NCBI RefSeq assembly: GCF_000764495.1
Contig: NZ_JRLB01000013.1
Span: 1-64,000, forward strand
Length of the DNA: 64,000 nt
Direction of reading: 5' to 3'
DNA from: Nitrincola sp. A-D6
GTDB taxonomy: Bacteria > Pseudomonadota > Gammaproteobacteria > Pseudomonadales > Balneatricaceae
In this document: positions 34,073 to 37,529 of the stretch, in pieces
Position numbering within the stretch: the stretch's first letter is position 1
How the letters are laid out: every line of letters starts with the position of its first letter
The notes under the pieces: model-generated
Databases searched by the model: none
What the model was told of the DNA's origin: nothing
Seen by the model: the letters and a program-made list of their open reading frames with translations, nothing else
Translations under genes and position numbers: made by a program

Positions 34073-34929
34073 TTACCGCCCGTGTATACGGCGCAGATAA
34101 TGCGCCTGCCAGATATTAATCAAAAAAAGTAGAATCAATGATGCCAATAACACCACCGAAGCAATCGCACTAGCCGCTGCATAATCAAACTCCTGCAAGC
34201 GAATAAAGATCATTAGACTGGTGATTTCACTCACATAAGGCATATTACCGGCAATAAAAATGACGGCACCAAACTCCCCCAGACTACGGGTGAACGACAG
34301 TGCAATCCCGGTCATTAAGGCTGGCCAAAGTGTTGGAAAAACCACTCTACGGAATACCGTCAAATCAGATCCACCAATGGTAATCCCGGCTTCTTCATCT
34401 TCTGGAGCCAGATCTTCCAGAACAGGTTGAACCGTACGTACCACAAACGGCAGACTGGTAAACGACATGGCGACAATAATTCCCAGCGGCGTATAAGCAC
34501 CTTGATACCGGCTTCAGCCAGAATTGAGCCATACCAACCGTTTTCAGCAAACAACGCCGAAAGGGTGATACCAGCAACAGCCGTAGGCAGTGCAAAGGGA
34601 AGATCCATTAACGCATCAACGATGCGCTTACCCGGAAATTCATAACGCACCAGTACCCAGGCAAGCAGCAAGCCAACAATGCCATTAAATAATGATGCAA
34701 TACCAGCAGCCCAAACTGTTACCTTGTAAGACGCCACCACCCGTGGATCACTGATCACCGCCCAGTACTCTTGCCAGGTCATGCCAGCCGTTTGTACCAG
34801 CAATCCAGTAATCGGTAACAGCAATACCAAACTGATAAACAGCAGTGAAATACCCATGCTCAGCGCGAACCCCGGTAATACACGCTTACCGGGGGTCAGA
34901 GAAATGGCGGGTGCAATGGCTGTAGACAT
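34073..34929 (-). CDS. cysT: Sulfate ABC transporter permease CysT (one frameshift)
   Basis: Partner permease of CysW, also called CysU. The N-terminal part has the first helices and DLPFALPTAVAGITL. The C-terminal part has VQPVLEDLAPEDEEAGITIGGS and TRSLGEFGAVIFIAGNMP. The frame breaks between 34498 and 34500: one base is missing and AGIKVAYTPLGIIVAMSFTSL is expected across it. Corrected length is about 285 residues, normal for CysT. It starts 22 bases after the binding-protein gene. Confidence 0.9.
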
Positions 34930-36733: not shown

Positions 36734-37326
36734 TCAACTGTGGGCTTTGACTCGCGCCCACACAGGAGGACGATGGTAACGCCCAACAACTGAACACAGG
36801 GTCAAAAAAGCCAGCAACGAATAGATCAAACTGGTCATATCCACCACCATGACAGCCAGCAGCAACACCAGTGCATCACCGGCCAGCGTGGTTTTACTGG
36901 CATGGATACCCAGGCGCCGCTCCAGATAAAGGGCAAGAATATTCAGACCACCTAGCGACGCATTATGACGAAACAGCAGAATCAGGCCAAAGCCGACCAG
37001 CATCCCGCCGAGTAACGCCGAAAACAACGGATCTATGTCGATATGAATAAATAAGCGCATCAGCTCGGAAAGTCCCGCGAGCATGGAGATACTGCAAAAG
37101 GTTCTAAGGTAAAATCCTTCCCTAATGTGTGCCAGGCAAGTAGATAAAAAGGCAGATTGAGCAGGAAAAATAACTGACCAAAGGAAAGTGGTGTCAGTTG
37201 GGTGAAAAGCATGCCGATCCCGGCCGTACCACTGATAAGCAGATTGGCAGCATTTAGCAGATGTACGCCCAGTGCAACGAGCAAACAGCCCTCAAACAGG
37301 GAGAGCCAGCGGTGTGTGGTACTCAT
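36734..37326 (-). CDS. YitT-family membrane protein (one frameshift)
   Basis: About 198 residues with five to six hydrophobic helices. HLLNAANLLISGTAGIGML and the second-half GLILLFRHNASLGGLNILALYLERR match the YitT pattern (GGhT/SGG turns). The frame breaks near 37105-37108, where one A is missing; FTLRTFCSISMLAGLSELM is expected across it. The proteobacterial short form without the DUF2179 C-terminal domain is seen here. The family's substrate is not known. A 115-base leader with two hairpins precedes it. Confidence 0.8.
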
Positions 37327-37476
37327 GATACAACCTCTATAGTGTACTGACTTGTGGTCAATAACGGTTCAGGTACCCGGCTTCTTGTGAAAGCCCTGGG
37401 TACAGATTCTCAGGGTAGTAAGAATCAAGCAGGAATCATACCAGAGTCGATATAATTAAAAAGTCTTTATTTTCAA
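37327..37476 (-). promoter_or_regulatory. Promoter and two-hairpin leader of yitT
   Basis: On the minus strand, TTGAAA (37476-37471), 16 bases and TATATC (37454-37449) form a promoter that would start near 37442. The predicted leader folds into hairpin one GATTCT/AGAATC (loop of ten, 37426-37405) and hairpin two, GTACCC + GGCTT paired with AAGCC + GGGTAC around a seven-base loop (37403-37373). No T-run follows. A 16-base AT palindrome, GATTAAAAATTTAATC at 37479-37494, abuts the -35 box. I cannot match the fold to a known riboswitch. Confidence 0.45.
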
Positions 37477-37529
37477 ACGATTAAAAATTTAATCTTTTCA
37501 GAAAATGCACCAAATACGGGCTAAACGCC

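Follow-up and report, generated by a model that had tools for sequence, protein, structure and literature searches.

A twin-hairpin leader RNA with conserved CANAA loops precedes yitT in Nitrincola and related genera, behind a sigma-54-type promoter

We analysed a stretch of 64,000 nucleotides (nt) from Nitrincola sp. A-D6 (contig NZ_JRLB01000013.1, positions 1 to 64,000; henceforth referred to as the window) and describe here an RNA element that lies on its minus strand between the stop codon of speE (37530) and the start of yitT (37326), a gene of the YitT membrane protein family. Judged by sequence comparison, the yitT leader is real, structured and of no known class: covariation is present across yitT leaders and no Rfam family matches them, and for these two reasons the structured leader of no known class proposed in a preliminary description of this DNA holds. 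Its conserved part consists of two small hairpins, each presenting a five-base CANAA loop on a stem that changes freely between genera. We favour, with a probability of roughly 0.45, the explanation that this is a two-site RNA element which controls the translation of yitT and is probably bound by a dimeric protein. The features concerned are as follows.

37429 to 37443, minus strand: sigma-54-type promoter TGGTATGATTCCTGC, with GG at -24 and GC at -12, exactly 10 nt apart.
37417, minus strand: predicted transcription start, about 12 nt past the -12 GC, placed from the position of the promoter and giving a 5' untranslated region of about 91 nt.
37373 to 37403, minus strand: hairpin 1, with an outer GUACCC/GGGUAC helix, a 2-nt bulge, a conserved core (37379-37395) and the loop CACAA (37385-37389).
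37345 to 37363, minus strand: hairpin 2, UAUUGAC-CACAA-GUCAGUA, with the loop CACAA at 37352-37356.
37334 to 37337, minus strand: Shine-Dalgarno core GAGG, 7 nt before the start codon.
36734 to 37326, minus strand: yitT, encoding a short YitT_membrane protein, in two frames with PF02588 on both pieces.

The preliminary description had placed two hairpins, one of 6 bp and one of 6+5 bp with a bulge, and an upstream AT palindrome before a YitT-family gene. The gene was correctly recognised (PF02588, start at 37326, minus strand), and the bulged hairpin exists at 37373-37403, where it forms the conserved hairpin 1 of a leader that is indeed structured; hairpin 2 at 37345-37363 had been missed. 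The 6-bp hairpin is present at 37405-37426 but falls outside the element: as the predicted start lies near 37417, it straddles that start and would be only partly in the RNA, its 5' arm not being transcribed, and by eye it is missing in other genera. Similarly, the AT palindrome GATTAAATTTTTAATC is present at 37479-37494 but is not part of the element, since L029 lacks it and the nearest relative (L003) has only an imperfect form.

YitT loci were collected from 57 related genomes (20 with a match) and from GTDB r220, with each species represented by one genome (42 loci), the latter retrieved through two peptide patterns, so that relatives without those peptides are missed. One locus (L070; 25% identical, Bacteroidales) was dropped from the counts, and eight Chromohalobacter (L060-L062, L064-L068) and two Cobetia loci (L058, L063), in which CCACAAG occurs once instead of twice, were excluded from the alignment. 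Without L070 and these ten Halomonadaceae, all 31 remaining leaders have both loops, none having been discarded for lacking the pair; together with the window and G010 they make up the 33 leaders of alignment A2, in which the start of L052, whose hairpin 1 stem is interrupted after one pair, was placed by hand. The 33 leaders represent seven named genera with twin hairpins (Nitrincola, Marinomonas, Marinobacterium, Neptunomonas, Marinospirillum, Balneatrix and Pokkaliibacter) and one metagenome-assembled genome. Four further loci with both loops (G034, G241, G260 and G345) lie outside the alignment, and their inclusion gives 37 leaders. Both hairpins carry the loop signature Y-CANAA-G, in which a pyrimidine-G pair closes CANAA. 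The letters C-A-N-A-A-G are unchanged at both hairpins in 33/33 aligned leaders, although this invariance partly reflects how the leaders were found, since they were anchored on the loop pattern. The middle base of CANAA is A, C or U, and the base 5' of the loop is C or U, paired with the invariant G. While the loops stay fixed, the stems are wholly different between genera, for example GGCUUU/GAAGCC in the window, GAGAAUC/GAUUCUU in Marinobacterium mangrovicola, and elsewhere UUAAC/GUUAA or CCGC/GCGG. The leader DNA as a whole diverges fast, with a match in only 3 of 38 genomes, the window's own among them.

None of 200 dinucleotide shuffles folds as well as the 168-nt stretch (z -2.97), and the 115-nt leader within it gives z -2.22, with 6 of 200 shuffles folding as well. 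Twelve base pairs were proposed from the aligned sequences and then tested on those same sequences: across the 33 leaders 91.9% of cells are paired compared to 71.6% when shuffled, and the covariation score is 0.678 compared to 0.280 for shuffled alignments and 0.236 for the best slid version. Double changes occur in 10 of the 12 pairs, the stems varying by compensatory substitutions, and RNAalifold alone recovers 10 of the 12 and returns no structure beyond the two hairpins, whose mean pair probabilities are 0.76 (hairpin 1) and 0.71 (hairpin 2). Covariation across yitT leaders, on which the preliminary description had hung its case, was assessed against our own phylogeny-aware null, similar to that of R-scape, in which the substitutions of one parsimony reconstruction are reassigned among columns along a FastTree tree; the statistic was the G value with average product correction, and the E-values come from 150 alignments of this null and not from R-scape. 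Among 3,321 column pairs, the first five places are all taken by proposed base pairs: 12-24 (E <0.007), 13-23 (0.02), 56-64 (0.027), 55-65 (0.06) and 54-66 (1.1), three of them thus below 0.05. The other seven proposed pairs gain nothing from this test (E 179 or more): next to the loops there is hardly any variation, and the outer pairs are formed in just two thirds to three quarters or so of the leaders. Covariation beyond phylogeny therefore argues for a conserved secondary structure of the kind expected in a structured cis-regulatory leader RNA.

Two explanations that assign the hairpins no regulatory partner can be weighed at this point. Functionless chance hairpins, kept by the common descent of close relatives, are already disfavoured and seem to us exceedingly improbable: 15 of the 33 aligned leaders are from Marinomonas, so the effective sample is below 33, but the tree-based null allows for relatedness and still ranks proposed pairs at the top, and the same loops sit on completely different stems between genera. 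An element of mRNA stability or processing, in which the hairpins protect the leader or direct its cleavage and sense nothing, would suit hairpins in a short leader for which no trans factor is known; it leaves unexplained why the loop letters are invariant on both hairpins while the stems change freely, and we consider it unlikely.

The genome sets searched with a model of the leader (R1) comprised 57 related genomes, 390 genomes from the order and 369 from the class; the sets overlap, stricter filters were applied, and the best 79 (57-genome set) or best 11-12 (the two larger sets) first-look candidates per genome were scored. The matches above 40 bits, numbering 9, 12 and 1 in the three sets, are all yitT leaders, one per genome, although the yitT frame of L108 does not open with an ATG downstream of the hairpins. 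This consistent position before one gene family is what a cis-regulatory leader would be expected to show. Because many of these genomes are of species from which R1 was built, the strong matches cannot count as independent support; the contribution of the search is a limited one, the lack of strong matches elsewhere among the first-look candidates scored, and since R1 carries yitT-leader sequence, twin CANAA hairpins before another gene could escape it if their stems were very different. The weak matches that were read, up to 27 bits, are without twin loops unless they are themselves yitT leaders. Of 48 weak-match loci, L087, a yitT leader, was alone in having two YCANAAG sites with stems of 3 bp or more; L119 and L120 are also yitT leaders, with hairpin 2 interrupted. 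A further six weak matches include five with one or more YCANAAG sites, and none of the six carries two of them on good stems on the same strand. Four were viewed in context; three fall within reading frames, and the fourth (L194) immediately precedes a leuA-like frame, which we take to be leuA from a reading of the protein and not from a search. This last site (about 827-842 of L194, reverse orientation, genome G014) is a single CACAA hairpin, GGCUU-CACAA-GAGCC, and probably a chance occurrence.

Starting from the protein, a YitT at least 60% identical to the full-length query is found in 15 of the 390 genomes of the order, and both loops are present in 15/15, as they are in the window's genome; the hairpin 2 stem is interrupted in G260, G241 and L055, and the stems of G345 are of 4 and 3 bp. 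The more distant YitT proteins whose leaders were read, a part of the distant copies, lack the loop pair, and viral contigs hold no YitT relative. In YitT family f37, a single upstream site occurs in 5 of 15 genomes: the Chromohalobacter-like G264, and G071, G162, G206 and G284 (42-43% identity, stems of 5-8 bp such as GGCGC-CACAA-GCGCC), three of the five belonging to one genus. Four f37 yitT leaders (L164, L166, L167 and L177) also have a ACAACAAGGA-like stretch (ACAACAAGAAGGA in L164) that overlaps the Shine-Dalgarno sequence 3' of the single CACAA hairpin, and which in our view resembles the A-rich Hfq/Crc target motif.

Promoters of the sigma-54 type are marked by GG-N10-GC in a TGGYAY..TGC context. 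Such a sequence lies upstream of the hairpin 1 loop, at a distance of 36 to 106 nt, as TGGTATGATTCCTGC in the window, TGGTATGAAATATGC in many Marinomonas and TGGCATACCTGCTGC and TGGCACACCGAGTGC in Marinobacterium; the exact 10-nt spacing of GG and GC, the context and the conservation between genera all point to a sigma-54 promoter. A scan of positions -180 to -90 found the pattern in 30 of 35 yitT loci, compared to a mean of 1.14 and a maximum of 4 in 200 shuffles, 0 on the opposite strand and 3 in a control stretch; both the pattern and the scanned stretch were fixed after inspecting the sequences, and L040 was omitted because its contig begins too close. The sigma-54 DNA-binding domain (PF04552, RpoN) is encoded in 7/7 genomes tested, including the window's. 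The promoter that had been described before the leader thus appears to be a sigma-54-type promoter at 37429-37443; a sigma-70 scan detected none at the leader. In our reading, an extended -10 element is also compatible with the Nitrincola promoter letters, but not with the Marinobacterium forms.

Over the 37 leaders, the two loops are 27-42 nt apart (median 35) and the end of hairpin 2 is 12-25 nt 5' of the start codon (median 21; for L051 the distance was counted from a start codon 9 nt upstream of the match, which gives -21 in a range of -25 to -12). The Shine-Dalgarno core overlaps the 3' arm of hairpin 2 in 9 of the 32 leaders with a recognisable core. In a folding calculation, holding both hairpins changed the mean unpaired probability of the Shine-Dalgarno sequence from 0.40 to 0.36; its accessibility rose in 2 of 32 leaders and fell in 12. 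We therefore rejected a classical switch by Shine-Dalgarno sequestration, as holding the hairpins does not expose the sequence, and for the same reason an operator blocked by a bound factor is suited to the data. Neither RNAalifold nor folding with held hairpins yielded a conserved alternative fold in silico. Also rejected were a pseudoknot between the CANAAG loop and CUUGU or UUGUG near the Shine-Dalgarno sequence, seen by eye in some leaders and absent in others, and an anti-hairpin CGGUUCGAACCG before hairpin 2, seen by eye only in some Marinobacterium leaders. The preliminary description had suggested a riboswitch; what is conserved turns out to be two small, near-identical loops on varying stems, the holding of which does not free the ribosome-binding site, and a protein operator explains conserved loops of this kind at least as well.

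As to known RNA classes, Rfam 15 gave 0 matches at the gathering score in the window, only chance-level scores in the leader when searched permissively, and no match to any yitT leader among 15 related loci, and we accordingly rejected the known Rfam families as its identity. CsrA was rejected as the binder because its loop signature, GGA, is not in the loops, and pairing of a small RNA to the loop because the middle base is variable (A, C or U). The TwoAYGGAY motif, by its name, has two hairpins that share a loop sequence, AYGGAY. It differs from the present element in having no CANAA, and it is listed for human gut, gamma-Proteobacteria and Clostridiales (PMC2864571). The literature searched, outside which lay a 2017 set of 224 motifs, contained no description of the element, nothing linking YitT to a riboswitch and nothing linking 'YitT family' to Marinomonas. 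By term search, the word YitT is absent from the main text of three surveys of noncoding RNA (PMC11109978, PMC8632094 and PMC6429828), a review of former orphan riboswitches (PMC7266159) and a 2010 set of 104 motifs (PMC2864571). The first of these mentions a rare Marinomonas motif, but before nqrA (PMC11109978).

The main rival to a protein-bound element is a small-molecule riboswitch similar to guanidine-II (mini-ykkC), in which the loops of the two hairpins would bind a ligand beside the ribosome-binding site and so control a transporter gene. Guanidine-II has two similar small hairpins with conserved loops, a variable spacer and a location near ribosome-binding sites, as here, and demonstrates that a ligand-operated switch, probably a translational one, can be built from a pair of tiny hairpins (PMC5486947). 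A riboswitch of this kind is favoured by the lack of a linked regulator gene, and a single target per genome (among the candidates scored) that encodes a membrane protein is also in keeping with it. Against this, guanidine-II precedes a different gene family, and its loops are ACGR, whereas ACGR tetraloops are not present here, where CANAA occupies the loops in 33/33 leaders. The loops of guanidine-II dimerise, and CANAA is without self-complementary letters; moreover, its loop and adjacent stem are strongly conserved, whereas the stems of the yitT leader are free. Since the leader also lacks an Rfam match, RNAalifold yields only the two hairpins and holding them did not free the Shine-Dalgarno sequence, we regard such a riboswitch as possible but doubtful.

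The fixed loops on largely free stems recall the dual-hairpin targets of ANTAR regulators (EutV, NasR, AmiR), which are recognised through conserved terminal loops (PMC3369931, PMC7496416); there the function of the EutV P1 stem is rescued by compensatory change, though not at the closing pairs. That the yitT leader is itself the target of an ANTAR regulator of the NasR/NasT type, as in nitrate operons, would fit the two hairpins with matching loops and the ANTAR domains found in 16 of 17 genomes tested. Nonetheless, the loop rule of ANTAR targets is six bases with A1 and G4, compared to five bases starting with C here; the linkers of eut leaders are 5-12 nt long, compared to the loop-to-loop distance of 27-42 nt; and a terminator overlaps the second hairpin, whereas hairpin 2 of the yitT leader adjoins the Shine-Dalgarno sequence and no terminator-like site was found near the hairpins in the window leader, the only one scanned. 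In addition, the window's own genome (96.5% complete, 117 contigs) has no ANTAR match, while its Nitrincola relatives G003, G004 and G005, which are without an R1 match, do have one. Membership of either class was thus rejected, the loops following neither the ANTAR nor the guanidine-II rule, and an ANTAR regulator acting at this leader appears very unlikely; ANTAR targets are still the best precedent for recognition by a protein, although their loop rule does not apply.

Taken together, we favour a two-site element read by a dimeric RNA-binding protein, since nothing but the loop and its closing pair is fixed and a platform for refolding was not seen; two equal loop contacts suggest either a dimer or two ligands. 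Under this proposal, sigma-54 and a putative activator would turn on yitT transcription in response to some nutritional or stress signal, after which a dimeric RNA-binding factor would read both CANAA loops, the proposed contacts for the trans factor. With hairpin 2 located inside the ribosome footprint or on its margin, the factor bound there would gate translation initiation, most simply as a repressor.

Several observations weigh against this proposal. At the promoter, 5 of the 35 loci are without the sigma-54 pattern in the scan (L032, L056, L138 and L148 have no convincing match, and L055 has the pattern at the edge of the stretch scanned), NtrC-like upstream sites are not enriched (8 of 35 loci with at least 7 of 8 letters, compared to 7.6 when shuffled) and no common activator site was found upstream. 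The one enriched dyad, ACAA-N13-TTGT, which we rejected as an activator site, is confined to Marinomonas (9 of 32 upstream stretches, all nine from this genus) and lies 258-353 nt before the gene inside neighbouring reading frames, within the divergent LysR frame in eight cases and another upstream frame in L042. The element is also not universal: the YitT of L012 (G032), 63% identical over 67 N-terminal residues, has no CANAAG loop in the 250 nt upstream, so that late gain of the element, or its loss, may have occurred within the YitT family, and the Halomonadaceae relatives have at most one such hairpin, a single CCACAAG on a 3-bp stem in the eight Chromohalobacter loci and on a 2-bp stem in the two Cobetia loci, which makes them possible intermediates. 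The calculated pair probability is 0.10 or less for hairpin 2 in L037, L040, L043, L044 and L046 and for hairpin 1 in L034, L052 and L055; because one hairpin is thus not the default fold in some leaders, the element may, on these predictions, act as a switch by refolding. Finally, no binding partner was identified, no regulator gene accompanies yitT, whose neighbours differ between genera, and one target per genome (among the first-look candidates scored) is unusual for a global RNA-binding protein, whereas a riboswitch would need no partner gene.

The variation of the neighbouring genes among genera also indicates, on the evidence of sequence, that the element is tied to yitT and not to an operon. 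A Pfam search identified yitT of the window as PF02588 (YitT_membrane) in two pieces (44.8 and 62.4 bits), the gene being split across an 88-amino-acid reading frame (37060-37326) and one of 116 amino acids (36734-37084), while its ortholog in G010 is unbroken at 197 amino acids. Because yitT is broken in this assembly, the element in the window may control a non-functional copy, or the break may be an assembly error. A sulfate-permease-like gene at 34073-34929, presumably cysT (a label given without a search), is likewise split into two overlapping frames, and either assembly indels or gene decay could underlie both cases. In other genomes, known RNA elements lie 3' of yitT: a xanthine (NMT1) riboswitch (RF03054, 40.7 bits) about 200 nt downstream in Marinobacterium stanieri (L050, 3794-3852), and cspA thermoregulator leaders (RF01766) directly downstream in two Marinospirillum species (L055, 3670-4072; L056, 3653-4074). 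The predicted structure of the L029 YitT protein has a mean predicted local distance difference test score of 86.8 and apparently comprises two repeats of helix, short half-helix (LLISGTAG or ASLGG), helix and helix; its best match in the PDB was no better than E 1.7, and the fold gives no clue to the substrate.

Pfam labels PF02588 'uncharacterised', and no YitT substrate turned up in the paper listings searched. We tentatively suggest, at somewhat short of even odds, that the CANAA twin hairpin founds a new class of gene-control RNA, either a minimal non-guanidine riboswitch for the YitT substrate or the operator of a loop-reading protein, which would act as a second checkpoint on a sigma-54-dependent transcript; if true, yitT would be made only when a global and a specific signal agree. 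A metabolite as the partner would make this a new riboswitch class of minimal size, and a protein would be a new reader of hairpin loops. In either case, a leader RNA that answers to the YitT substrate or to a regulator of its pathway would be a direct handle for finding that substrate, and screening compounds or proteins against the leader of about 90 nt would be the route to it.
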